From a virus, in the IMG/VR virus record IMGVR_UViG_3300021964_006878, positions 1 to 64,000 of that record: a stretch of DNA of 64,000 nt; one strand, 5' to 3'. The notes below the pieces were generated by a model that did not search any database, was not told where the DNA came from, and saw only the letters and a list, made by a program, of their open reading frames with translations. The position numbers and the translations under genes are program-made. Below are positions 2,680 through 57,716 of this stretch, in pieces (positions within the stretch are counted from its first letter, which is position 1; each line of letters opens with the position of its first letter).

Positions 2680-4851
2680 ATGGCATCGCAAAGAAAGATT
2701 TTCAAAAGAGTTGGTTTACGAAGAGATAAGAATTTCTCAGACCTTTCTGATTCAACACTTGCATTGAACAATTTGCTTGATACACTTGTTGATAGTGTTG
2801 ATGCGACTTTTATATCTGAAGATTTAGACGCAATTCGTAATATTTTTTCATCAGGACTAACTCAAAGTGAGTATAGGGAGTTTATTGGTAGTGCTGTAGA
2901 AGAAACTGATATTAATGGTATCAATGTTGGAGTTGTGCCTAGAATTACGTATCAGAATCGTTTAGATAAATTTCAAGTTTCTTCTGGAACTCCTAGACTT
3001 AATGGTGGTAATGGTCTTACCGCCAAATATTTTAACGCAGACCAAGTTCAAAATACCACAGATGTTTTTACTGGGATTACCACTGGAGGTTCAATTCCAA
3101 GTGATACTTTTTGGGAAGCTGGAAACTTTGAATATACAGCAAAAATCCACCCACAATCAGTAAATACTGCTGGTGGAGTTCAATGGGAAGGTTTCTTCGT
3201 TCCAGCACAAACCGGTGTTTACAGATTTACTTCAAGTGGTAGTTTAGGGTTTACTGCTGATTTTCAAACCGAAGGATATACGTCTGGTATCAACACATAT
3301 ACAGAATATTCTAGAGTTCTACTATCCAAATCAACTACTGGGACAACTGAGGGTACTACATTAGTTGTAATTCCAGCAGGAGATGTGAAAAATATTGGAA
3401 TTGGTATGACTGCATCTGGTTCTGGAATTCGTACAGGTTCTATAGTAAGTGGAATAGGAAACACTGGAATAATTACACTTGAAAACCCAGATGGAGACCC
3501 GATTACATCTATTGCTACTGGTGCTATTAATTTTACTAGAGAAGCAGGAACTTCGGTTTCAAGTAATTTTGATACCTATACATTAGAAAAGTTTGAACAA
3601 TATAGAATTAGATTTAGATTCTTCGTTCCGGTTGGAGTTCCTAGTTTAGGAGTTGATAAAGCAATGGCATTTCTTTTTCTACCTCCAGGTGCTACTAGCA
3701 GTTCATATCTACGATATAATAACTTATATTCATTAGATTATGATTTTTCAGAACCAGCAAAGGGTAGTTTTAATAAATTCCTAGACCAATCTATATTATT
3801 TGGCGGTGGTCTTATTGGTGGAACAAGTAGTAGTGGATATGTAAAAGTTAAATCAACTAAAAAAATTGATATTAAATATGTCCCCAAAACAAACTATGCG
3901 GGAATCTTAAGAAAAACTTTCACAGCAAGTTGGAGTACAGGATCTAAAGTTATATCATTGAGTGATACTACAAATATTGAAATTGGAAATTATCTTTTTG
4001 CATCGGGATTAACATCAAATGTAAATATACCGGTTCGTGTGATTGACATTGTAATCAATGATTTTATTATTATTGACACTGCAACAACTGGTAGTGGTTC
4101 AAATGCTACTATTAATGCTATCAATCATCGTGGTTTTGTTAAAAGAGTTACAGCAAGTTCTAGTGCTGGAACAGTTACTATTAGTAATGGAAATACCAAT
4201 GACCTTAAAAGTAAACAACTTGCAATATGGGATGGGGTTTCACAATATACTGGAATTACTACTAATGGTTCTTCCAATCAAGTAACTCTTTCCCCATCTT
4301 CGGGATTTGGTACTAGAGCACTTTACTTTTATGAATCTAGAGGTCTGATTGATAAAGCATTAAATTCTTTCTGTGTTCCTACTCAGACGCAATGTATATT
4401 AGTAACTACCGCAGCAACAGCAGGTGATACAACACTAACAGTTGAAAGTGTTGCAGGAGCAATCGCACAAGGTTGGGTGATTCAAGGATTCCCATTTGCA
4501 TCAGGAACAACAATTTCTTCAATTGTAGGCAATACAATTACTCTAAGCACAGGAATTACTAAAAACATTAATCCTGGTTCTAATTTTACTGTTACAAATT
4601 CTGGAGGTGATAGATCACTATGCTGTCCTCCAACAGATACATCACCACCATTTAACCCAACTGAAGAAGGATTAGAAACAACCACATCATCACCAAACCT
4701 TGAAATTGTTGGTGGTAATGTTAAATTTGATGCACTTAATGCAACTATAAATCCATCTAAAATATCATTATACTCTTCTACAGACAAATCTAATAATAGA
4801 TTGCAACTAAAAGGTGGTGACGGAATCACATACAATATCTTATGTGTCTAA
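2680..4851 (+). CDS. PA14-like virion adhesin (723 aa)
   Basis: This is the only plus-strand gene in the first 37 kb. Residues ~1-90 begin with MASQRKIFKRVGLRRDKNF, a basic N-terminal pattern similar to the neighbouring protein MAVKQNQGFRRDLNF. Residues ~110-330 contain GLTAKYF, then GVQWEGFFVPAQTGVYRFT, and later YRIRFRFFVP. This is the layout of a PA14-type beta-barrel carbohydrate-binding domain, apparently split by a Gly/Thr-rich insertion. The C-terminal half is Ser/Thr/Gly-rich beta repeats, ending with a Cys-Cys pair (SLCCPP). It has its own late promoter and a terminator after the stop. It is probably a cell-surface-binding virion component; the PA14 assignment is from pattern only. 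Confidence 0.65.
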   Translation: MASQRKIFKRVGLRRDKNFSDLSDSTLALNNLLDTLVDSVDATFISEDLDAIRNIFSSGLTQSEYREFIGSAVEETDINGINVGVVPRITYQNRLDKFQVSSGTPRLNGGNGLTAKYFNADQVQNTTDVFTGITTGGSIPSDTFWEAGNFEYTAKIHPQSVNTAGGVQWEGFFVPAQTGVYRFTSSGSLGFTADFQTEGYTSGINTYTEYSRVLLSKSTTGTTEGTTLVVIPAGDVKNIGIGMTASGSGIRTGSIVSGIGNTGIITLENPDGDPITSIATGAINFTREAGTSVSSNFDTYTLEKFEQYRIRFRFFVPVGVPSLGVDKAMAFLFLPPGATSSSYLRYNNLYSLDYDFSEPAKGSFNKFLDQSILFGGGLIGGTSSSGYVKVKSTKKIDIKYVPKTNYAGILRKTFTASWSTGSKVISLSDTTNIEIGNYLFASGLTSNVNIPVRVIDIVINDFIIIDTATTGSGSNATINAINHRGFVKRVTASSSAGTVTISNGNTNDLKSKQLAIWDGVSQYTGITTNGSSNQVTLSPSSGFGTRALYFYESRGLIDKALNSFCVPTQTQCILVTTAATAGDTTLTVESVAGAIAQGWVIQGFPFASGTTISSIVGNTITLSTGITKNINPGSNFTVTNSGGDRSLCCPPTDTSPPFNPTEEGLETTTSSPNLEIVGGNVKFDALNATINPSKISLYSSTDKSNNRLQLKGGDGITYNILCV

Positions 4852-4929: not shown

Positions 4930-6135
4930 TCAGGGAGTCATTAACAGGTAGTATGTCTCTCCATTGATTGTGACTGGAACTTTATGAGTGAAAGATTCTA
5001 TATCTACTTCTGAGCCTGCTATTTGACTCGTCCCTGTAATTGTAATATCACTTGCAAATAAAAGTTCTCCTACCGTAACTTCTTCACTATCAGTTTTTAA
5101 ATTAGTTCCATCAATTGTCCATGGATTATTATCGGTTGAAAATGCACGAGTCTCTCCGATAAAAATACCTGGAGATTGTGCATCATCAAGTGCTGAACTA
5201 GTAGTATTAAATTGACCGGGATCAAATAAATTAACAGTTCCTTCAAATTTTATTTCATCATCTGTGGTTGTATTGTCTGTACCTTTATATTTTTTAGTAA
5301 TAAAATAACCAGCATTCTCAACATTTGCTTGAGTAGATTCAAATACATCATTAATTGAACCACTTAAGTAACTGCCAAATTCCTCATTGTCTTGGATATC
5401 TGGTCTTGTAAAATTAATTAAATTCTGTTGATGGACAAGTTCTTTTCTAATAAAATCAAATTGTGATGGAGTTGATGTTATATTAATCGTGCTTATGCCA
5501 GCAGTGCTGCTATTAAATGATAACTTAAATTTGGTTTCAGAATCAGAATTGCATATGAAATATTCAGTGCCAGGACTTAGAGTTGTTGAACCTACACTTA
5601 CAGATTCACTTACAGTAACAACATCATCTTTTGTATATACAAACTGGGTTCCTGATTTAAATGTTATCTTTGCATTGGTCAAATCACTTGAAGGTGCAGC
5701 ACTATTAAAGAGCACATTATCTACTTTATATGTAAAGAATGTTCCTCCTGCTCCTATGGTTTGTGTAGTAAACTGACCATTGAAAATTGTTGATGCTGTT
5801 CCTGCTGTAGTTACATTTTCAAGTATAACAAGTTCCCCACGATATGTATTATAAGGAACTGTTGTTGTTACAGTGACTAAACTAGAATTATCATCAAAAG
5901 GTATTGATTTAATCGAATCTATATTCAGAACTTTATCCGAATTAAAAATAAATTCATCAGTAGTTAAATTTACGGAATTGAATGCTAGATAAGAAGTATT
6001 TCTTAGATTATTTTGAATAACTCTCAGGTCACCAGCGATTCCAACCCCACCCAGATTACTTAATGACAGAACGTCATTTGTGTTTTCTTCAAAGTTTAGA
6101 TCTCTTCTAAATCCTTGGTTCTGCTTTACTGCCAT
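4930..6135 (-). CDS. Virion structural protein (401 aa)
   Basis: The N-terminus MAVKQNQGFRRDLNFEENTN, followed by LSLSNLGGVGIAGDLRV, is a form seen on several cyanophage structural proteins. The rest is Thr/Ser/Asn-rich beta sequence without a recognisable domain. It ends near a convergent terminator and follows the leucine-rich-repeat gene by 6 bp, so the two are co-transcribed. It is probably a tail fibre or decoration subunit; no catalytic residues can be picked out. Confidence 0.6.
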   Translation of the reverse strand: MAVKQNQGFRRDLNFEENTNDVLSLSNLGGVGIAGDLRVIQNNLRNTSYLAFNSVNLTTDEFIFNSDKVLNIDSIKSIPFDDNSSLVTVTTTVPYNTYRGELVILENVTTAGTASTIFNGQFTTQTIGAGGTFFTYKVDNVLFNSAAPSSDLTNAKITFKSGTQFVYTKDDVVTVSESVSVGSTTLSPGTEYFICNSDSETKFKLSFNSSTAGISTINITSTPSQFDFIRKELVHQQNLINFTRPDIQDNEEFGSYLSGSINDVFESTQANVENAGYFITKKYKGTDNTTTDDEIKFEGTVNLFDPGQFNTTSSALDDAQSPGIFIGETRAFSTDNNPWTIDGTNLKTDSEEVTVGELLFASDITITGTSQIAGSEVDIESFTHKVPVTINGETYYLLMTP

Positions 6136-6141
6136 TGTTTT

Positions 6142-8616
6142 TTAATCGTGAGTGACGTTCCAACCTTTTGATCTCAAAATTGTGATAAATTCTAAACCAA
6201 TTTCACTAGGTGGTCCATTTCCACGAAGATTTATTGTAACTCCTCTACGATTTACGGATACCCAGTTATCGTATAAATCTTCAAGTAATTGGTCAATTGC
6301 TTGTTGTGATAAAGAATTATCAGATAAATCTATATATCTGATGTAATATAATTCCTTGAATGCTCCTGTCTTATATCCAGTAAATTGATTATTAGACATA
6401 ATCAAATAATACAATCTAGGACATTCACTAAGGTCAGGAATTGCTCCAGTAATCTGATTATTATGAACGTAAAGGTATCTTAAAGCAGGTAAGTTTTCAA
6501 ATTTACCAATTCCGGTAAACTTATTATTTTGTAAAGCTAGATAATAAAGTCTTGCAAGATTTTTATAAGTTGGAATTGCATTACTAAGTTGATTATTGTT
6601 AAATTGTACAAAATATATATTTTGATTTGCTGCTAGGTTTGGTACTGACCCAGTAAAAGCATTTTGAAACAATCTAAGGTATGTTAGATTGGGATTACCA
6701 GCAAAACTTGGAAGAGTTCCACTAGTTCTACCATAAGAACGATACCACAAATAATAAAGAGCACTAACATCTACAAAAGCATCAGGGTGAATTGCAGAAG
6801 TCAATAAATTTCCAGAATCTATATAAAGACCACTTAAATTTGTTGCAAATTGGAAAGTGTCTCTTGGGATTACAAAACTTTCATTTCCATTTGGAGCACC
6901 TCCCTTGATTCCAGTATATCGTAAGTCTAGACTTGTTAGATTGGGATTAGTAAATACTGGGAATCTGCTTCCTGATATACCACCTGCGGCATATAATCCA
7001 ATAGTTTTTAACTCACTGCATCCATCAAATCTATAATCAATACTATTTCCTCCCTCTAAATCAACTAGTTTTCCAAGACTTCTACCATATGATGCACTAA
7101 AAGATTCTAATGAATTTTTTCCCTGAGTTCCAGTAGGAAACGGTAATCCAGTTGACCCTATGTTTATAGATTTAATAACATTATTGCCCGGAGCGATTCC
7201 AAAAGTACTACTACCGAGATAATAATTACTAGCAAGGTTTAGTGTAACAAGATTTTCTAATTGATTTACATTGAATCTTGTTGTACCATCTGCAGTAAGG
7301 TCAATTGATCTAAAGTCATTTCTACGAATACTATAAGTTTCTACTGTAGACGCAACATTGGGAATAGTATTACTAGAATCTGTGGAGTCGGGATGGAAAT
7401 ATGCTCCACCACCTCTACCAACATCGAATACAGTCAACTGCTGAAATCTATCTGCAAATATATTTTGTGTAATAGAACCATAAAAAGTTCCTTCAAGATA
7501 TAACTGTTTAACTCCAGTAGGAATCTTGTCTAAGATGGTATTTGTTGTTGTTCCACTAGGTGTGGAAGTACTCTGTAATTTTCTTTCACTTTCAACTTCA
7601 CTCAAATAGAATGGATTTCTTCGTAAAAGTAATTCATTTATATTTGGTGCAACGAAATTAATATCAGGAAACTCTCTTAATGCATTATAAGAAAGTTCAA
7701 TTCTTGTTGCTGCTTGGAACTTGACTGGGGGGAGACTTCTAATATTTGCAGACGTAATACTAATTTCACGAATTCTATCGGGATTATAATAAAATTGTAT
7801 AAATCTTTCTCTAGAGATTGAAGATCTATACCTTATTGAAGATGTTGTTCCGCCTATATTTTTAAAATTTGAGTATCTGTTTGCGTTTCCTGTCTCAACA
7901 ATCTTCCAACTTGCAGGAGTATCATTAACTAAATTTGTTAATGTGATTGTTGCATTTAGATTCCTAAAGAAACCTTTGAATATAACAGGAATACCCTTCA
8001 TCGCATAAAGAGTTACTGTCTGACCACCAATGGTTGTTTGTACTTTATGAGTTGGAAATTCTGAAGGAAATTCTTTTTCCTGTGGTACAATAGAAGTCTG
8101 AAGTCTTGGTCCTGCAACAGTTGCTGTTCCGAATACTAATGAACCACCACTACGAATTCCAAGTCTTGCACCATATGATATTGGAGATGTAGATAGAACT
8201 GGACTTGCAGAAGAACTCCATGCACTAGTTCTTGAAGTTGAAATGTCTGCAATTTTAATGGTAGCACCACTACCAGTCCCATCAACATACCTATATCTAA
8301 TTGCATTACCACTCAATGAACCATTAATTTTTAAATTACCGAACAGAGAACCATCTGTTCCTGCTCTTTCTAAAAGTAAACCATTAAATTGACCCGAATC
8401 ACGATTTAATCTATCTAAAGTCTTATGGAGAGGGTCAACTAATCGTGAAAAACTAATCCAATCATTACGTGTTGCACCAGCATCACTTGAACCAAGAATT
8501 ATTTCTAGGTCTAAGGGTGGTAAATTGATATTTTGTAAAGATAAATTTTTATCCCTAACATCAGCAAAAGAACTGAGTACATTAAGACCAAATAATTTTG
8601 GATTTTTGATTGCCAT
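6142..8616 (-). CDS. Leucine-rich-repeat virion protein (824 aa)
   Basis: Residues ~1-60 include FADVRDKNLSLQNIN, a head shared with other phage structural proteins. Residues ~275-800 contain many leucine-rich repeats. The last ones are clear: YLYVHNNQITGAIPDLSEC, then YLIMSNNQFTGYKTGAFKE, then YIDLSDNSLS. The LxxLxLxxNxxxGxIP form is the extracellular plant/bacterial LRR type. LRR solenoids bind proteins or glycans, so I infer a receptor-binding or adhesive role. Upstream is an 83-residue structural gene with 12 bp spacing. The repeats are irregular, and Ile/Tyr often replaces Leu. Confidence 0.75.
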   Translation of the reverse strand: MAIKNPKLFGLNVLSSFADVRDKNLSLQNINLPPLDLEIILGSSDAGATRNDWISFSRLVDPLHKTLDRLNRDSGQFNGLLLERAGTDGSLFGNLKINGSLSGNAIRYRYVDGTGSGATIKIADISTSRTSAWSSSASPVLSTSPISYGARLGIRSGGSLVFGTATVAGPRLQTSIVPQEKEFPSEFPTHKVQTTIGGQTVTLYAMKGIPVIFKGFFRNLNATITLTNLVNDTPASWKIVETGNANRYSNFKNIGGTTSSIRYRSSISRERFIQFYYNPDRIREISITSANIRSLPPVKFQAATRIELSYNALREFPDINFVAPNINELLLRRNPFYLSEVESERKLQSTSTPSGTTTNTILDKIPTGVKQLYLEGTFYGSITQNIFADRFQQLTVFDVGRGGGAYFHPDSTDSSNTIPNVASTVETYSIRRNDFRSIDLTADGTTRFNVNQLENLVTLNLASNYYLGSSTFGIAPGNNVIKSINIGSTGLPFPTGTQGKNSLESFSASYGRSLGKLVDLEGGNSIDYRFDGCSELKTIGLYAAGGISGSRFPVFTNPNLTSLDLRYTGIKGGAPNGNESFVIPRDTFQFATNLSGLYIDSGNLLTSAIHPDAFVDVSALYYLWYRSYGRTSGTLPSFAGNPNLTYLRLFQNAFTGSVPNLAANQNIYFVQFNNNQLSNAIPTYKNLARLYYLALQNNKFTGIGKFENLPALRYLYVHNNQITGAIPDLSECPRLYYLIMSNNQFTGYKTGAFKELYYIRYIDLSDNSLSQQAIDQLLEDLYDNWVSVNRRGVTINLRGNGPPSEIGLEFITILRSKGWNVTHD

Positions 8617-8628
8617 GTATCTTTCCTA

Positions 8629-8880
8629 TTACCAAGTAGCGAGTGCGGATCTTTTCCAAGTGTTTGTTGCAACACAGACATATAGATAACTGGCATCATA
8701 ACGAATATCACCTGCGGTGCCACTACTAGTTGCAGAGGCAGGTGCAGAACCTTCTAATGTGATTTCACCAGTAACACCACTAACATCTATACTAAAACTA
8801 CCAGACAAAGTATCAGAATCACTAATCTCCTGAATTTGTTGAGCAGATGCATTTATAATAAGTGGTCTACGGTTTGCCAT
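8629..8880 (-). CDS. Small tail-fibre-like protein (83 aa)
   Basis: The protein begins MANRRPLIINASAQQIQEI and ends with GTAGDIRYDASYLYVCVATN then TWKRSA. The motif GDIRYD..YLYVCVA...W is a typical short beta module at the C-terminus of phage fibre proteins. It sits between two large structural genes in the same orientation. It may be an accessory fibre subunit. Confidence 0.65.
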   Translation of the reverse strand: MANRRPLIINASAQQIQEISDSDTLSGSFSIDVSGVTGEITLEGSAPASATSSGTAGDIRYDASYLYVCVATNTWKRSALATW

Positions 8881-8905: not shown

Positions 8906-8913
8906 TATTTATT
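8906..8913 (-). promoter_or_regulatory. Possible late promoter (AATAAATA)
   Basis: AATAAATA on the minus strand lies 25 bp upstream of the 83-residue gene and overlaps the stop of the 1,250-residue gene. It has one mismatch to TATAAATA, so this is a tentative call. Confidence 0.35.
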
Positions 8914-11900
8914 ATTGTTCTTTGTAGTTCAATGTTGCTTCGATTTCACCAGAGGAACCAGAGTCAAGTTTCTTAGCAACTAAGAAAGTTGCTTCGATAT
9001 TTTGGTTATCTGGAGTGATTACATTACGATCTGGTCCAAAGATTTTAGACATATCAATTTCATCAGTTTGGTTTGCACCAATGTATATTGTATCAATTGC
9101 AGTCGTTGGTCTCAAATTTTGTTCATTTTGTTTATCAATTAGAGCAGATGAAAGTCTACTAACTTCAAGGAAATTGGTAGGTGCTGCTCCAGATATATCA
9201 GCTTCACCTCCAGCATTAGTGACTTCTATGTTGTCACCAAATGTATACAATTTTGGTGAAATTGTTCTTTGGAATTTTCCTGATGTCTCTTTAATTGAGA
9301 TATTATTGATTGCAGCATTATCACCCAACTTAGCAAAGAAATATAATGGATATGGGTCAAAATTAAATAACTTCTGTCTAACAGGATTACCACTCGCTGA
9401 GATTTTGATTGGTCTAATATCAACAGAAAAATTAGAACCTGGACTTCCAAGAGTCTCACTGATTTCAATATAACTGAATATATCACCATTAGTATCAAGA
9501 TAAGTTTCAACATTTCCGACATATGTTGCTGATGATGGAGATATCTCTGAAGTCAATTTAACTTGACCTCCGTCAAAATCAATTCCCGTTGGCATAGTAC
9601 CTTGTTTGAGTAAGAATAATCTACCTAGTGGGTCTGGTCCAGTTCCATTTGGTGGGGGATTACCTGGTTCAAAATTAATTTGAGTTAAACCAGAAATTTC
9701 TGAAGTATCAAGAACTTCAACAGTTACTAATGAACATCTACCACTAGAATTACCTGGAGGTGAGGGAATTCTATAATCTAAAGCCATTCTTCTTGGTGGA
9801 TTTACAGGACTCCAAGTTTCATTGATCTCAGTACCATCTTCATTTTGTCCTGCTCGTGAATGAGTATGTTCAGCATATAAAACATCAGATTTATCCAGAA
9901 CAGTTGTTAATCCTACACCAGGTTTTATGAAACCCAACAATTGGTCTGGAACTGATATTGATGGTTGGAAATTCGTCATACCAACTGTAAAATCAGCAAA
10001 GTGTCCATACGAATCATTCTGAGAAGGATTTAAGAATTGAATTTCAATTTTAGTTCCAGTAAATTTAAAGTCACAAGCAGCATAATGATTATTCTGACTA
10101 CTCAGGCGAATTGGATACCCATAATTTGGAACAGTAGGACCAGCATTTAGAGTAGTTACTATACCAGAAACAGCATCCTTAACTTGGATATCGTAGTTTC
10201 TATCAGTCAGAGTTGGATAACCATCTGCACCAGGATAACCCTTAATTGTTGCAGTCGTAAATGATTTTCCACTTCCAACAGGAGTATCATCCTCTAGGTT
10301 AGTAATATATGCATTCCAAATACTTGGAGCAATAATTTTAGAACCAAGATCAGATGCCTCAAAATATGAATCATTGACTGCTGCAAGTGTATTGCTACCA
10401 ATCATTCTAACTTCAACACTTGGTCCAGTTGTAGTAGCAGCAATTCCAGGAGTATAAACATGCCCAAATCCAGGACATGCTCTACATTTTACAACCTCAA
10501 CTTTTGCTAAAGAATCACTAGTAACATTCATTGTGGTTGGAATGATTAACTTTTTATTTTTAATCTCTGTTCCAATACTATTCAAAATAAAATTCTTTGG
10601 TGTGACTCCAAGTAAAGTTCTACTCGTAACATTGTTAATAGTTTTTATCTTAGAACTTGTAGAGAATATTTGTGAGGTTCCCTCGTCACCACCATCAATA
10701 TAATATGAAGCACCATACTTATAAAGAAATTGTGGTGTTCTAACATCAGTTGTCTTAGCAACATTGAGTGAATATGCTAGTCTAAAGTATGAGTCTTCTA
10801 AACAAGGAGAACCCATTGAGTTTTCAATCACAAAAGTATGAATGACTACCCATCTTGCCTCACCAGGACCAGCAGGAATATATGCATAGAATCTAGCACC
10901 AATAGCACCATACCAACCAAACTCAATCTTATACATGGTAACTTTATTTGGTTGAATCAAATAACCTGATGGTCCATTACCATTCAGTGGGTCACCATTA
11001 AACTTATCTCTAGGAACTTCTATAGTCCAATATTCTTCACTATCGAACGGGTCACCAGTTCCTTTACGTACTTGGTCTAAAGAAGTCAAACCACTTCTCT
11101 TTAACGCAGATAATGGAAGAGGTATTGAACTTCTACGAATGATTTTAAGTTGTCCTGCTTCAATTTGGAATACATACTGGTCTGTTGGGTTTTTGATACC
11201 CCATTCCAAAGTAACACCACTAACTGTTTCAACAGAAGACCTTAAACCGAAAGTGAATCCACTAATACGACCAGGTTGATATCTGAATACTCTTCTAGAT
11301 TGTAGATATGAATATCTTTGATTACTATCACTATATCCTGGACGAGTATCATCAGAACCAAACGGTCCACTAGCTAAGTCTAGTCCATTAATTGTGGCAA
11401 AAGTATATGCTAGAGAAGTAGTTGGATTGATAAGAATACTATCTCTAATATCCCTCCAGGTATCAGTCCAAGTATCAACTAGTGCAAAAGACTGTGCAAT
11501 ACCAGCTGCATATACAACATCACCCGACAATACATATGTTTTTGATGGGTCTAAAAATTTATCTTTCCAATCAGCAGGGTAACCTTCACTTGCTCCTGGT
11601 CCGCTATTGTAATAATTAAATAACTCATTTCCAAGTTGAATGAATTTTAGATAACGATTAAACAAATCTTCATTGTAAAATCCTACTTGTGTAAATCTAG
11701 GTCCAAAAGGATATGAATATGGTACGGCAAATGCTTCTAATCTAATAGCAGACTCTTGTACTTCTTCTCTCCTAGATGCATTATATCTGTTACCATAAAT
11801 TGAATTTGCTCTCCCATCCCAAGAACCAAAACTGGTTCCTGCAGTGATTGCAAAAAATTCAAACTCATCATTATTCAAACCATAAGATGATACATTAGAA

Positions 11901-12664
11901 AATAAACTCAGTTGAGTTTCTGCTCTATTAACACCAAGAAGTGTGGTGCTAACTTCACTCGACTCTTTAAATTGTTCTACTACTTTAAGGACATTATTTG
12001 ATGTATTTACTTCCCTTACTGCCCTATTGATACCTATTATACTTGTCTGTATTCCAACAATATCAACATTATTTGATAAATCAATCCTAGAATTGAATAC
12101 CTTTGAAACAAAAGTTCCATCTGGGATACCAAGACCTTTTACTCTATCAAAAACTCGAACATTTAGTGTGGTAGAAATACCAACATCATCAGAAAAATAT
12201 AATTTATTTTTTAAATCACCTCCCTGATCACTCTGAGTCTTAACATCAACAAATGGAAACTGAGAAAATTGTGTGCTTCCAAGACCAATATCAACAGAAC
12301 CACCTGCTACAAGAGGAACAGTTTGTCCAAATGCAACTGTAGATCCGCCACTTTGTAATACATTTGCAGCACTGATACTGACATCAAAGTTCACATTATA
12401 AGTTGCTGTTGATGTACCAACAGTTGAAAATTTTAATCTCGTGTATGCATCTTCAGGGTCTTTTGGTAGTACAATAGATGTCGATCTTTCTGCTGTCGCA
12501 TCGGCAACGAAGAACTGATCAACATTAGTAATAAGTGGTGTTCCAAATTCGTCAGTTAATAATTCTCCATTGGCGATATTATAAAGGTTATCTTCATTCT
12601 TCGGTATAATACTTACTGGGCGTTTATCGTCGCCCAGTTTTACATCCTTTCCTCCGTTCGCCAT
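8912..12664 (-). CDS. Large virion structural protein, paralogue A (1250 aa)
   Basis: This very large protein has no signal peptide or enzyme motif. It shares ordered blocks with the next gene upstream: FRYQPGRISGFTFGLRSS, KVTMYKIEFGWYGAIGARF, GEARWVVIHTF, KYGASYYIDGGDEGT and, further on, RTLLGVTPKNFI. The shared blocks cover roughly residues 470-740, so the two genes are diverged tandem duplicates with different N- and C-terminal ends. The C-terminus is beta-rich. It is probably part of the tail fibre or baseplate periphery, where cyanomyoviruses carry proteins of this size. It begins 3 bp after the stop of paralogue B. Confidence 0.7.
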   Translation of the reverse strand: MANGGKDVKLGDDKRPVSIIPKNEDNLYNIANGELLTDEFGTPLITNVDQFFVADATAERSTSIVLPKDPEDAYTRLKFSTVGTSTATYNVNFDVSISAANVLQSGGSTVAFGQTVPLVAGGSVDIGLGSTQFSQFPFVDVKTQSDQGGDLKNKLYFSDDVGISTTLNVRVFDRVKGLGIPDGTFVSKVFNSRIDLSNNVDIVGIQTSIIGINRAVREVNTSNNVLKVVEQFKESSEVSTTLLGVNRAETQLSLFSNVSSYGLNNDEFEFFAITAGTSFGSWDGRANSIYGNRYNASRREEVQESAIRLEAFAVPYSYPFGPRFTQVGFYNEDLFNRYLKFIQLGNELFNYYNSGPGASEGYPADWKDKFLDPSKTYVLSGDVVYAAGIAQSFALVDTWTDTWRDIRDSILINPTTSLAYTFATINGLDLASGPFGSDDTRPGYSDSNQRYSYLQSRRVFRYQPGRISGFTFGLRSSVETVSGVTLEWGIKNPTDQYVFQIEAGQLKIIRRSSIPLPLSALKRSGLTSLDQVRKGTGDPFDSEEYWTIEVPRDKFNGDPLNGNGPSGYLIQPNKVTMYKIEFGWYGAIGARFYAYIPAGPGEARWVVIHTFVIENSMGSPCLEDSYFRLAYSLNVAKTTDVRTPQFLYKYGASYYIDGGDEGTSQIFSTSSKIKTINNVTSRTLLGVTPKNFILNSIGTEIKNKKLIIPTTMNVTSDSLAKVEVVKCRACPGFGHVYTPGIAATTTGPSVEVRMIGSNTLAAVNDSYFEASDLGSKIIAPSIWNAYITNLEDDTPVGSGKSFTTATIKGYPGADGYPTLTDRNYDIQVKDAVSGIVTTLNAGPTVPNYGYPIRLSSQNNHYAACDFKFTGTKIEIQFLNPSQNDSYGHFADFTVGMTNFQPSISVPDQLLGFIKPGVGLTTVLDKSDVLYAEHTHSRAGQNEDGTEINETWSPVNPPRRMALDYRIPSPPGNSSGRCSLVTVEVLDTSEISGLTQINFEPGNPPPNGTGPDPLGRLFLLKQGTMPTGIDFDGGQVKLTSEISPSSATYVGNVETYLDTNGDIFSYIEISETLGSPGSNFSVDIRPIKISASGNPVRQKLFNFDPYPLYFFAKLGDNAAINNISIKETSGKFQRTISPKLYTFGDNIEVTNAGGEADISGAAPTNFLEVSRLSSALIDKQNEQNLRPTTAIDTIYIGANQTDEIDMSKIFGPDRNVITPDNQNIEATFLVAKKLDSGSSGEIEATLNYKEQ

Positions 12665-12667
12665 GAA

Positions 12668-15600
12668 TCACTGCTCCTCCCAAGTAATACTTGCCGATAC
12701 ATTTCCTGTTGCTGTAGGAGAACCTGCTGCGGGGGAGAATAATCCAGGTTTATATTCTTTCTGTGTAGAACCACATAGATATAAACTATCTACAATATTT
12801 GTGAGTGGGAAAGAAAGATACTCTTTATTGTAATCAAAGTATGGTGATAAGTCGTAGTTCTCACCTGATGCGGGGATATAGAGACTTGCTACAATTGTTC
12901 CCGTCTTTGGAATAGGCGATTTATTCTGCGGACTCACTTTAATTGAAGATAATTGTGCAAGTGTAAATTCACTTGGTTCTGCGCCAACTGTATTTCCTTC
13001 TGCGTCTGCATCTTCTTCCCTAATAAATGGTTCAGTGTTGTTTAGAACAATATTAGCAGAGGTTGAATCTAATGCATAGAAGTAGTAACTATCAGTATCA
13101 ATATTCTTAGTTCTATTTTTTCCTCTGTTTTCTAAGTAACCTAGAACTGAAATTGGTTTCTGTGCGCCATCAGTCTCAAAGTATCCTCTGAGATATCCGT
13201 AAGCACCACCACCAATGTCTCTAATATATTCTGCAGATGAACCAACATTACCAGTATTAGCATCAGTAGTAACACTGAATACTAAAGTGCTTCCACTAGT
13301 TCCACTACGAAGTATGATTGGTCTACTATAATCACCGGAGATTGCTCCGTCAAAGTCTGTACCGCCTGGAGCATTTCCATCAAAGATTGGATCAGTAACA
13401 CGAGGATATACTTTAATAGCAGTGTTGTTATCTAAGGTGCAAGTGAATGCTAGAGACTCTTTCTTAATTCTGATTTCAGTTCCAGCACTCAATCCGTGAG
13501 CAGAACCTGTAGTTGCACTAATCAAACCAGTTGACGAATCATATGTTACTGCTGTAATTGCATACTTGGTGCTGGTATTCAATGAAGCAATCGCATTTGC
13601 AAGATCACTACTACCAGGAACAAATGTATGTGCTCCAGTATATTGAACTAATGGTAGTTCAATAGGAGTTGGTTTTCCTCTCTTTCCAATATTAACTTCA
13701 GTACTAAGTTGTGGAAGTGCAGAAGTTGGTTTAACGATTACTGAGGTTGTTTGAAAGATTGGTGTCTTCAAAAGATCAACCTTAATCACAGCATCAGAAC
13801 CAGTAGACATTCTGGTTGGATATACTTGAGTTCTATTTCTTACGTCTCTACCGGTGCTACTCTGAATGAAGTCTCTACACTTAATACCTACCAGTGGTGT
13901 TACACGGTTTGGAATAACAGTGATACTTGCTGGATTGTCTGTATTGAGTGGAGAGTTGAGATGTAAACGACCATTGGATGTGTTTACATAAGTAACTTCA
14001 ATATTCTGATCAAGAGGGTCAGTAGTTATAATTTTTGCACCAGTGTAATAGGCAGTGGATAATCCTGATGTTGCACCAGCAGTGATATATGGATCAGATG
14101 TATCAATTGCATTGGTAAGTGATGCCTGTGTTGAACCTACACCTGTTGAGAACTTTCTCTTCAGTCCAAATACTTCCTGTTCTATTGGAGTTCCATGGCT
14201 GAATAGTTTAACCGTTCCACGGTCGCCACCATCAATATAATATGAAGCACCATACTTAACGATATGCTCTGAAGCACTGCCATAACCAAAAGCACTTGCT
14301 GTTCTTAGTCCATTAGCATATCCAAATCTATTTGGATTACCTCCACCATACACCAGATAAGTGATAGGAAGTGTCGCATTGCCCAGTGAGGAGACCTTCA
14401 ACTGGTTTGATGCCCGGAGATGATGAACTCTAACCCAACGTGCTTCTCCGTTGCTTACAGGCACATACGCAAGGAACAGAGCACCAACAGCACCATACCA
14501 TGAGAATTCAACCTTATACATGGTGACCTTCTCAAGGTCAAGATCCCAGATACTGGTGTCGGTTAGAATTTCATTTGTATTTTCATCAATAACAGGACTT
14601 CCTGCTCTCTTATCTGCTACAGCATCACTATAAAGTAATGTATCAGTTGAATCATCTAATCGGTCACCACTAAACCTAGATCTTGGAACACGATACTCAT
14701 AGACACCCCAGTATTGGATATCAACGTTTTGATTTACCCACTTATTATAATAGTCATTAACATTATCAATCTGACCTTTAAGTGTTGCAGTATTTGCAGC
14801 ATTTAATGATGTATCAATATAACCTTCAGAATTATCATCAGCATCCGTATACTTATACGGGAACATACCCGTTGGTTTGACTGTAGTATACTTAGTAAGA
14901 CCTGAACCAATCAAACTACCAGTTATTGGTTGAATAAATGGAACTGGAGTCACTAGAACATGTGAAGAAATACCAGTAAAGTTTGTCAATCCACTTAAAG
15001 CAGTGCCATCTAAATTTTCTAGTGAAACAGTACTGATACCAGTAATAGTGTTAACACCAACAGCACCTACCTTATAAATTTTTTCATCAGTAAATCCTGT
15101 AGTAACACCGGCATTTACTCCTTTTGAATACGAAACATACTGTCCATCTGTAAGACCAACTACGTATCCACCACCATTAGTAGCATAATACGTTTGAACA
15201 GTTGAAACACCAACATTAACTGTAAATTGCTTGACACCATCAACTCTTACGACATTATAACCAGTTGTCCTATTTGGATAATACTTTGGTGATGAACTAT
15301 ACTGACAGGTCATTCCGATCCCAGTCAGTGTTACATACTTACCATTCTTATATCCATGATCATTTTCGGTTGTGATTGTCATCAAACCGGTATTGATATT
15401 ATATACTGCGTTCGTGACTGAATTAGCAAGACCTGCTAAACTAATTGTATTACCATCAAAGACTGATGTAATACCTACTTCGTGTTTTGGTTGTAATAAA
15501 GACTCATCATAAACAGCAGCATGAGTCATCATCAAGTTATCTCTCACGATAACAAGGTCACCCAATTTGCGATTAGTATAACCAGGAGGAACAGAAGTTG

Positions 15601-16333
15601 CTCCTGCACCAACAGATTCAGATGCTCTTGCATCTAGAGGATTGTATGGATTTGTAACACCATAGTCTGAAGTTTGTTCACCAGAACCATTTCCAAATGG
15701 TAAAGGATTAGCAAAAGTATTTGCCTGAGTTCTTCTTACAACACAGAAGTTATCATCTACACCATTGTTTCTTGATTCCCAATAATATCCATCGTAATTA
15801 TCAAAGATACCATACTTACGAACTGCTGGATTCTGAACATTAGAACCGTCAGAATTAATTAAAGTCGTTTTAACACCAAATGTAGCGGATGAAACACGAC
15901 CAGGTTGATATCTAAAGAATCTTTTAGATGAAAGAATAGCAGATTTATCAGCAGGTGCTTCAAGTAATGCACCAGATTCTTCTGGAACATGAGTCAGACC
16001 CCATCCCATTGTCTGACCAACACCAGCATATACACCTTCAGTACCAACCGAAGCAAACTGTTCTGGAGTTGATGTCCATTCTGTAGGGTTAACATCATAT
16101 GTGTTAACGTCGGCAAAGATACCAAGTGCAACTTCCGATCTTGGAATACCTAGAAGTGAAAGTGCAACTTCTGATTGAACTTTATTCTGTTCTTCAACTG
16201 GAATTGCAGTTTGGTCACTTGCTACAACAACAGGTATTGACTTATCAGATTTTTGTTGACCAGGAGGAACCGGAGCAGTTCTACCTACAACAGTTACCGC
16301 TGAATTAGCATTTACGTTTGTATTGTCTGGCAT
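12668..16333 (-). CDS. Large virion structural protein, paralogue B (1221 aa)
   Basis: The protein starts MPDNTNVNANSAVTVVGRTA and contains SDKSIPVVVASDQTAIPV, a short motif common at the N-termini of cyanophage structural proteins. The core repeats the blocks of paralogue A: FRYQPGRVSSATFGVKTT, KVTMYKVEFSWYGAVGALF, GEARWVRVHHL, KYGASYYIDGGDRGT and KCRDFIQSSTGRDVRNRT. The order is identical, so duplication is the simplest explanation. Function unknown; virion location is inferred from context. Confidence 0.7.
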   Translation of the reverse strand: MPDNTNVNANSAVTVVGRTAPVPPGQQKSDKSIPVVVASDQTAIPVEEQNKVQSEVALSLLGIPRSEVALGIFADVNTYDVNPTEWTSTPEQFASVGTEGVYAGVGQTMGWGLTHVPEESGALLEAPADKSAILSSKRFFRYQPGRVSSATFGVKTTLINSDGSNVQNPAVRKYGIFDNYDGYYWESRNNGVDDNFCVVRRTQANTFANPLPFGNGSGEQTSDYGVTNPYNPLDARASESVGAGATSVPPGYTNRKLGDLVIVRDNLMMTHAAVYDESLLQPKHEVGITSVFDGNTISLAGLANSVTNAVYNINTGLMTITTENDHGYKNGKYVTLTGIGMTCQYSSSPKYYPNRTTGYNVVRVDGVKQFTVNVGVSTVQTYYATNGGGYVVGLTDGQYVSYSKGVNAGVTTGFTDEKIYKVGAVGVNTITGISTVSLENLDGTALSGLTNFTGISSHVLVTPVPFIQPITGSLIGSGLTKYTTVKPTGMFPYKYTDADDNSEGYIDTSLNAANTATLKGQIDNVNDYYNKWVNQNVDIQYWGVYEYRVPRSRFSGDRLDDSTDTLLYSDAVADKRAGSPVIDENTNEILTDTSIWDLDLEKVTMYKVEFSWYGAVGALFLAYVPVSNGEARWVRVHHLRASNQLKVSSLGNATLPITYLVYGGGNPNRFGYANGLRTASAFGYGSASEHIVKYGASYYIDGGDRGTVKLFSHGTPIEQEVFGLKRKFSTGVGSTQASLTNAIDTSDPYITAGATSGLSTAYYTGAKIITTDPLDQNIEVTYVNTSNGRLHLNSPLNTDNPASITVIPNRVTPLVGIKCRDFIQSSTGRDVRNRTQVYPTRMSTGSDAVIKVDLLKTPIFQTTSVIVKPTSALPQLSTEVNIGKRGKPTPIELPLVQYTGAHTFVPGSSDLANAIASLNTSTKYAITAVTYDSSTGLISATTGSAHGLSAGTEIRIKKESLAFTCTLDNNTAIKVYPRVTDPIFDGNAPGGTDFDGAISGDYSRPIILRSGTSGSTLVFSVTTDANTGNVGSSAEYIRDIGGGAYGYLRGYFETDGAQKPISVLGYLENRGKNRTKNIDTDSYYFYALDSTSANIVLNNTEPFIREEDADAEGNTVGAEPSEFTLAQLSSIKVSPQNKSPIPKTGTIVASLYIPASGENYDLSPYFDYNKEYLSFPLTNIVDSLYLCGSTQKEYKPGLFSPAAGSPTATGNVSASITWEEQ

Positions 16334-55176: not shown

Positions 55177-56235
55177 TCAAAGAGCATTTCCTCTTGGAAG
55201 GATCTCCTCAATTACAGGAAAGTTTTCGTGTGGTTGGTCAATAGTCATCATCCATTCACGGAGGCCATTGTTCAACAAAATATTTTTCGTGTAGAAAGTT
55301 TCGTATGAAGCGTCCTCTGCTGCTCTAATCTCTTGACTCACAAAATCATAGGCACGAAGATTAAAAGCAAGCCCAATGATCCCAATAGAGGAGACCCAAA
55401 GACCCATGACAGGAACAAAAAGCATAAGGAAATGAAGAAACCGCTTATTGCTAAACGCAATCCCGAAGATTTGCGACCAGAAACGGTTCGCAGTAACCAT
55501 CGAATAGGTCTCCTCCTCCTGAGTGGAATCGAACGCTTTAAATGTGTTTGCCTGTTCTCCATCTTCATACAATGTATTTTCTACTGTGACACCATGGATA
55601 GCACTGAGTAGTGCTCCTCCTAGTATACCAGCAACTCCCATCATATGGAAGGGGTTGAGGGTCCAGTTGTGGAAACCCTGAAGGAACAATAGGAATCTAA
55701 AGATTGCTGCTACCCCGAAACTAGGTGCAAAGAACCATGAAGACTGACCCAGTGGATAGATAAGGAATACACTGACAAAAACAGCAATAGGACCAGAGAA
55801 CGCAATAGCATTGTAAGGACGGATACCAATCAGGCGAGCAAGTTCAAACTGTCGAAGCATGAAACCAATGAGAGCAAAGGCTCCGTGGAGTGCCACAAAA
55901 TTCCAGAGTCCCCCAAGTTGGCACCAGCGTTGAAAGTCCCCTTGAGACTCAGGACCCCAAAGTAGCAAAAGAGAATGACCCATAGCGTCAGCAGGCGTCG
56001 AGACAGCTGCCGTAAGAAAGTTAGCACCCTCAAGATAGGAAGAAGCAAGACCATGGGTGTACCAACTCGTAACAAAAGATGTGCCAGTAAGCCAACCGCC
56101 AATGGCAAGATAAGCAGTGGGAAGAAGTAAGAGTCCAGACCAACCCACAAAGACAAAGCGATCCCGTTTAAGCCAGTCATCCAGGACATCAAACCATCCC
56201 CTCCCTTGTTGCTGTGATAATGTTGATGTTGTCAC
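55177..56235 (-). CDS. psbD: Photosystem II D2 protein PsbD (352 aa)
   Basis: It is full length (352) and has all five membrane helices. Start is a GTG preceded by AGGAGG, overlapping the TAG of the previous gene. Typical D2 sequence: [40 protein letters not shown], and [20 protein letters not shown] with the chlorophyll/iron His. The C-terminus ends [10 protein letters not shown] as in cyanobacteria. It forms the reaction centre heterodimer with D1. The phage supplies both, which keeps photosynthesis running while host D1/D2 decay. Confidence 0.98.
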
Positions 56236-56586: not shown

Positions 56587-57666
56587 TCAACCAACTGTGG
56601 GTGCAATTAAGGCCACAGGTGTGGACTCTACTGCTGCCAAATCAAGTGGGAAGTTGTGTGCGTTTCTCTCGTGCATCACCTCCATACCAAGTCCTGCTCG
56701 GTTAAGAACGTCTGCCCAAGTGTTAAGAACTCTACCCTGTCCGTCGATAACAGACTGGTTGAAGTTAAATCCATTCAAATTGAATGCCATGGTGCTTACG
56801 CCCAGTGCGGTGAACCAGATACCAACAACAGGCCATGCAGCAAGGAAGAAGTGCAATGAGCGTGAGTTGTTGAATGAAGCGTATTGGAAGATCAAACGAC
56901 CAAAGTAACCGTGAGCGGCAACAATGTTGTATGTCTCTTCTTCTTGTCCGAACTTGTAACCATAGTTCTGTGACTCAGTTTCAGTCGTCTCACGGACGAG
57001 TGAAGATGTAACCAAAGAACCGTGCATCGCTGAGAACAATGAACCACCGAAGACACCAGCCACTCCAAGCATGTGGAAGGGGTGCATCAGGATGTTGTGC
57101 TCTGCTTGGAAGACAAGCATGTAGTTGAATGTACCACTGATACCCAAAGGCATCGCATCAGAGAATGAACCTTGACCGAAAGGATAGACGAGGAATACAG
57201 CAGATGCTGCTGCTACTGGAGCAGAGTATGCTACACAGATCCATGGACGCATACCTAAGCGGTAAGAAAGTTCCCACTCACGTCCCATATAAGCATAGAT
57301 GCCGATAAGGAAGTGGAAGACTACGAGTTGGAAAGGACCACCGTTATACAGCCACTCATCAAGAGATGCTGCTTCCCAGATGGGATAGAAGTGAAGACCA
57401 ATTGCGTTGGAGGATGGGACAACAGCACCAGAGATGATGTTGTTACCGTACATGAGTGAACCAGCAACTGGTTCGCGGATACCGTCAATATCGACGGGGG
57501 GTGCTGCTACAAAAGCAACGATGAAACAGATGGTTGCCGCCAACAGAGTTGGGATCATCAGCACACCAAACCAACCGACATAGAGACGATTGTTGGTAGA
57601 TGTAACCCACTCGCAGAATTGTTCCCACGAAGAGGTTGATTGTTGTCTAGAAAGAGTTGAAGCCAT
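56587..57666 (-). CDS. psbA: Photosystem II D1 protein PsbA (359 aa)
   Basis: The start is the ATG of [20 protein letters not shown] (57666) rather than an upstream ATG 12 bases earlier. The protein has D1 features: the D-E loop [20 protein letters not shown], the sensor [15 protein letters not shown], and the C-terminal processing site [16 protein letters not shown]. It is intact and intron-free. D1 turns over fastest under light, so phage copies support photosynthesis during infection. A long leader (about 160 nt) with a hairpin, a consensus host promoter and an exact late promoter precede it, so it can be transcribed early and late. Confidence 0.98.
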
Positions 57667-57716
57667 TGTTTTGAACAAAAAAGTAAGACCATCAGGGAAT
57701 GGTGGAGTTACTATTT

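Follow-up and report, generated by a model that had tools for sequence, protein, structure and literature searches.

A leucine-rich-repeat protein of the tail module of T4-like marine phages keeps a constant number of repeats and may be a conserved adhesin

The stretch of DNA analysed here (the window) comprises the first 64,000 bases of a viral record of 85,366 bases. Close to one end it carries a gene for a leucine-rich-repeat (LRR) protein, for which computational analysis established an LRR fold, membership of a family, a fixed gene order, homology to a protein of phage S-TIM5 annotated as a virion protein, a constant number of repeat units and purifying selection. The best reading of these data is that the protein is more likely an adhesin than a scaffold, and that its gene is not a fast-changing host-range gene. 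With middling confidence we propose a virion protein (tail or baseplate periphery) of T4-like marine phages that is built from an anchor, a beta domain and a ligand-binding solenoid and most likely acts as a conserved adhesin.

The window contains T4-like cyanophage genes for the baseplate hub, tail lysozyme, tail tube, and baseplate cap and wedge proteins, and in addition genes for a gp32-like single-strand-binding protein, a helicase loader, PhoH and two photosystem reaction-centre proteins. The first-pass annotation had placed the LRR gene among virion genes, which was confirmed: it lies in the tail module, in the company of a gp5-like hub/lysozyme, the tail tube, baseplate proteins, a 2310-aa tail fibre and phrog_1645 virion proteins. 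We infer that the protein itself is located on the tail. The gene starts with ATG at 8616, runs to 6142 without internal stops and encodes the following parts:

6142..8616 (stop codon included), minus strand: LRR virion-associated protein gene, 824 aa
8365..8616, minus strand: N-terminal anchor, residues 1-84; helices predicted at 23-84 with modest to low confidence
8050..8364, minus strand: linker region, residues 85-189; sequence kept (ADISTSR, PTHK), model not confident
7786..8049, minus strand: beta domain, residues 190-277; contains YAMKGIP; about six strands, for the most part modelled with high confidence
6307..7785, minus strand: LRR solenoid, residues 278-770; 19 units
6145..6306, minus strand: C-terminal cap, residues 771-824; helix, strand, helix, ending in LRSKGW

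A Pfam scan of the 824-aa protein detected LRR families only, all above their cut-offs (LRR_8, 1.8e-21, 76 bits with a cut-off of 27; LRR_4, 7.6e-13, 48.7 bits with a cut-off of 27; LRR_1, 1.9e-8), and neither a kinase nor any other enzymatic domain. The structure was predicted with AlphaFold2 using an alignment of 23 homologues. The mean pLDDT of the model is 80, with 498 of 824 residues at 90 or more; confidence is mostly high from residue ~210 to the C-terminus, which covers the beta domain, the solenoid (mostly above 90) and the cap. Regular LRR strands extend over residues 282-763 and form a curved solenoid to which each unit contributes a single short strand, giving 19 units of 22-43 residues each, followed by the cap. 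In a second model (residues 1-296, 46 homologues) the head is helical as far as residue 84, and the linker that follows is ill-defined. Searches with the beta domain (190-277) against solved structures returned weak beta-sandwich matches, none with an E-value below 0.001. The Pfam matches and the model thus bear out the LRR solenoid that the first-pass annotation had described, with structure prediction suggested as a check. Its extent had been given as more than 500 residues; about 490 are in repeats, and the larger figure is reached only when the cap is included.

The repeats had also been assigned to the LxxLxLxxNxxxGxIP class. Strict L..L.L..N motifs occur eight times in residues 278-790, compared to a mean of 1.1 and a maximum of 6 in 2000 shuffles, confirming LRR repeats; the G-x-IP spacer is clear in units 13-17 only (residues ~618-732), and the remaining units are irregular. 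Solved structures that match by sequence and by fold are chiefly ectodomains of plant LRR receptors. In the Foldseek search plant LRR receptor kinases rank first (MIK2, HSL1, BRI1 and FLS2 are the top PDB matches), with long alignments and modest overall TM-scores to the query of ~0.26-0.44. They have solenoids of the same repeat class; however, no kinase was found in the phage protein, it has no receptor architecture, many of its repeats are irregular and residues 1-190 form a phage-type head. The likeness to plant receptors is one of repeat class, and descent from plants does not follow from it. Internalins and other bacterial LRR surface proteins likewise present an LRR ligand-binding surface, but their matches are weaker than those of the plant receptors and confined to the repeats. 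LRR-like stretches of PHROG families 6688 and 21719, neither of which has an assigned function, match 23 and 15, respectively, of 28 members of the family described below, while their matches to the window protein are confined to the repeats (~630-778) and do not cover the head.

A scan of IMG/VR with the head region found 26 loci, which encode the same kind of protein wherever enough of the gene is present, and a scan with the alignment found homologues of the same layout on at least 70 uncultured viral contigs. Clustering of the 66 open reading frames of 700 aa or more (window included) gave 51 clusters at 95% identity and 14 at 50%. LRR_4 and LRR_8 were detected in all 28 family members scanned (E <= 0.01). 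In four members (L059, L062, L068 and L069) large insertions towards the C-terminal cap enlarge the protein to 1044-1407 aa, and the insertion in L059 holds a GGSGYxxGD stretch. On a 236-kb contig (L017/L040) the LRR frame breaks after residue 36 and resumes in another frame, owing to either an assembly error or a real break.

The neighbourhood of the gene is conserved as well. The loci examined preserve the order 1221-aa gene, 1250-aa gene, variable slot, LRR gene, 401-aa gene and inverted 723-aa gene, even at identities as low as ~25%; exceptions are partners that are lost where a contig ends or that have diverged too far to be matched. In the window the members of this cassette around the LRR gene are:

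12668..16333, minus strand: 1221-aa virion structural protein (phrog_1645)
8912..12664, minus strand: 1250-aa virion structural protein (phrog_1645); lies upstream of the LRR gene in all cases, with or without the variable slot in between
8629..8880, minus strand: 83-aa gene in the variable slot; a conserved anchor of ~30 residues is followed by a short end resembling a fibre tip
4930..6135, minus strand: 401-aa protein adjoining the LRR gene; aligns with S-TIM5 and S-TIM54 proteins at the matching position
2680..4851, plus strand: 723-aa protein whose N-terminal anchor is common with the LRR protein

A homologue of the 1250-aa protein was also observed among the tail genes of the 69-kb Synechococcus phage S-CBS4 (gp044).

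Profile comparison showed that ~56 residues of the head (~6-61) are common to the 723-aa neighbour (hhalign 92.6%, E 4.7e-7), which suggests a common docking site of the LRR and 723-aa proteins on the particle. Residues ~6-61 are also common to the S-TIM5 protein AEZ65694. A candidate occurrence of the anchor in the 401-aa neighbour was dropped, as it covers 24 residues only at 54% probability. The head had been called typical of cyanophage structural proteins. This applies to the 723-aa neighbour and to S-TIM5 and not in general: tblastn with the head alone found nothing in 50,697 phage records, so the head belongs to this cassette.

Searching the same 50,697 records by tblastn with the window protein and its head revealed no cultured-phage homologue, and neither did searches with three relatives (two whole, one with its C-terminal repeat part); each returned four Listeria records with unrelated LRR matches, or nothing. 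A pattern scan of 84,980 species genomes found no relative of the LRR family, and there is therefore no evidence of a cellular donor. A cultured counterpart was detected by structure. Among predicted viral proteins the best Foldseek match is S-TIM5 H6WFW9 (1193 aa; E 4e-19, TM 0.56/0.41), which leads the next viral match by seven orders of magnitude and corresponds by name and length to AEZ65694 in the S-TIM5 record. Comparison of the LRR protein with AEZ65694 by hhalign gave 98.9% and an E-value of 1.4e-17 over residues 7-337, i.e., the head and first repeats. The AEZ65694 gene directly follows a homologue of the 1250-aa gene and precedes a 644-aa gene and an inverted 1392-aa gene, and the arrangement in S-TIM54 is as in S-TIM5. 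In the cultured-phage collection only S-TIM5, S-TIM54, S-TIM61 and S-TIM66 (Aurunvirus) carry such a protein. These homologues share the head by profile, the LRR fold by Foldseek, and the gene neighbours, order and strand switch; they differ in being longer (1193-1217 aa, with longer insertions in the solenoid), have ~22% identity and are missed by tblastn from the window protein. Pfam LRR families match the S-TIM5 protein only weakly, in keeping with its lack of an LRR name: we found no LRR annotation for it in the records examined.

The annotation of AEZ65694 reads 'virion structural protein and packaging'. A later paper (PMC10665884) mentions, with reference to Sabehi et al. 2012, that proteins (kinases) were identified in virions of S-TIM5, and the virion label of AEZ65694 may rest on proteomics. 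Since the homologue at the matching position is annotated as virion structural, a virion role of the LRR protein is well supported by homology. An alternative is that the protein is not part of the particle and is instead delivered into or acts on the host cell, or serves as an assembly chaperone for the neighbouring fibres. Some LRR proteins are indeed effectors inside cells and chaperone genes often lie beside fibre genes; against this stand the annotation of the S-TIM5 homologue, the anchor common to a cassette neighbour and the lack of enzymatic domains in the Pfam scan, and we regard this alternative as improbable. The LRR protein is probably a part of the particle, serving either to bind the host or to hold further components of the tail.

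The first-pass annotation had suggested that the solenoid is a host-range determinant with rapidly changing repeats, to be checked through repeat-number variation and positive selection among related phages. All 19 units are present in each of 23 members. Units 1, 15, 16 and 18 have a single length, the length of units 14-16 and 18 is nearly constant across the family, and residues 601-775 of the window protein align without gaps in 22 relatives; most of the insertions that occur fall within units 3-9 or the C-terminal cap. For 12 pairs dN/dS is 0.06-0.36 over the whole gene and 0.06-0.32 in the LRR region, and wherever a value was obtained, for any pair or region, it is well below 1. When eight close pairs are pooled, it amounts to 0.18 for the concave face, 0.05 for the LRR core and 0.12 for the protein outside the LRR. 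The mean identity to the window across 17 loci is 56.4% for the LRR protein, 57.5% for the 1250-aa protein, 53.8% for the 401-aa protein and 50.5% for the 723-aa protein; the LRR gene is conserved about as well as the 1250-aa gene, and in 17 of 17 loci it is better conserved than the 723-aa one. The repeats are under purifying selection, and neither positive selection nor variation in unit number was found among the relatives. LRR solenoids can bind varied ligands, and within the family the concave positions vary more than the core and rank among the most variable positions of the repeat. Nevertheless, the constant units, the low dN/dS, also at the concave face, and a rate of change like that of the neighbouring genes make a rapidly changing determinant very improbable. 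At three register positions of the concave face 30-41% of the residues are aromatic. An aromatic sugar-binding face was considered and dropped, as the enrichment over a plant receptor (~20-26%, a rough count by eye) is modest.

The real variability resides in the slot directly upstream (8629-8880 in the window). Between the 1250-aa and LRR genes, relatives have zero to several genes, and most of the proteins start with the same ~30 residues (RRPLIVN..A.QIQEL.DSD) followed by differing domains, which in relatives include phage tail collar, Gp10 C-terminal-like and other C-terminal domains. This variable slot is present in the window, L002-L013, L025 and L052, and it looks like a classical exchangeable fibre tip. 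A lectin-like gene and a subtilase gene are extras in two cases. Open reading frames resembling 2-oxoglutarate oxygenases were observed in the slot in places.

A structural scaffold could also account for the constant unit number, the purifying selection and a rate of change similar to that of neighbouring structural genes. In this reading the solenoid would bind other virion proteins, such as the swappable slot fibres or the 1250-aa and 401-aa proteins, and hold them on the tail, with no contact of its own with the host. Low dN/dS and fixed length fit a scaffold as well as an adhesin, the cassette partners travel together and the variable fibre gene sits between the 1250-aa and LRR genes. However, several relatives (L014, L015 and L018) lack the variable fibre gene and keep the LRR gene, so carrying that fibre cannot be its sole task, and the most variable positions of the repeat include those of the concave face. 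A scaffold is therefore a serious reading, though we rank it as the less probable one. As regards an adhesin, the putative anchor is shared with a neighbour and the fold suggests a binding domain; neither hypervariability nor domain swapping, which mark the binding part of adhesins, was detected in the LRR region (family alignment, dN/dS, 17 loci). As a conserved adhesin, the protein would dock to the tail through its helical N-terminal anchor, the beta domain would cap the solenoid, and the long concave face of the 19 units would bind a ligand via protein-protein or protein-glycan contacts. The solenoid would then read a host-surface feature that varies slowly, and the adjoining fibre gene would provide the variable specificity.

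To our knowledge, descriptions of long LRR solenoids as components of phage virions are rare, and a literature search found no paper on LRR tail proteins of cyanophages. An LRR has also been proposed for a tail-module protein of a coral-mucus vibriophage (PMC10945359), a claim that differs in resting on 10% HHpred probability and an LxxLxLxxN segment.

Genes of the psbA or psbD family are present in 6 of 25 records checked (G000 included). In the window the two photosystem genes lie side by side on the minus strand (55177-56235 and 56587-57678); PHROGs names both D1, and scores of 240 and 300 bits suggest a psbD-like gene and psbA. The longest of the records (236 kb) encodes a capsid protein with 83.7% identity to its counterpart in Synechococcus phage S-SRM01. 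The capsid protein of a more distant one (G015, L093) is nearest to those of Sinorhizobium phages (68.6%). No photosystem genes were found in this record or in G016 (L094), distant family members on T4-like contigs; as most records are fragments, a missing psbA carries little weight. Phages of more than one host group probably carry the cassette.

As a tentative interpretation, this widespread marine-phage tail cassette may divide host recognition between a slow LRR adhesin for a conserved host feature and a swappable fibre tip for strain specificity. Since the cassette occurs in psbA-bearing cyanophages and in relatives with a Sinorhizobium-phage-like capsid, the LRR protein may recognise a feature common to different host groups. 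With at least 51 clusters of intact neighbourhood, reaching to the cultured S-TIM5 (Synechococcus WH 8102), the question of its ligand can be tested in the laboratory.
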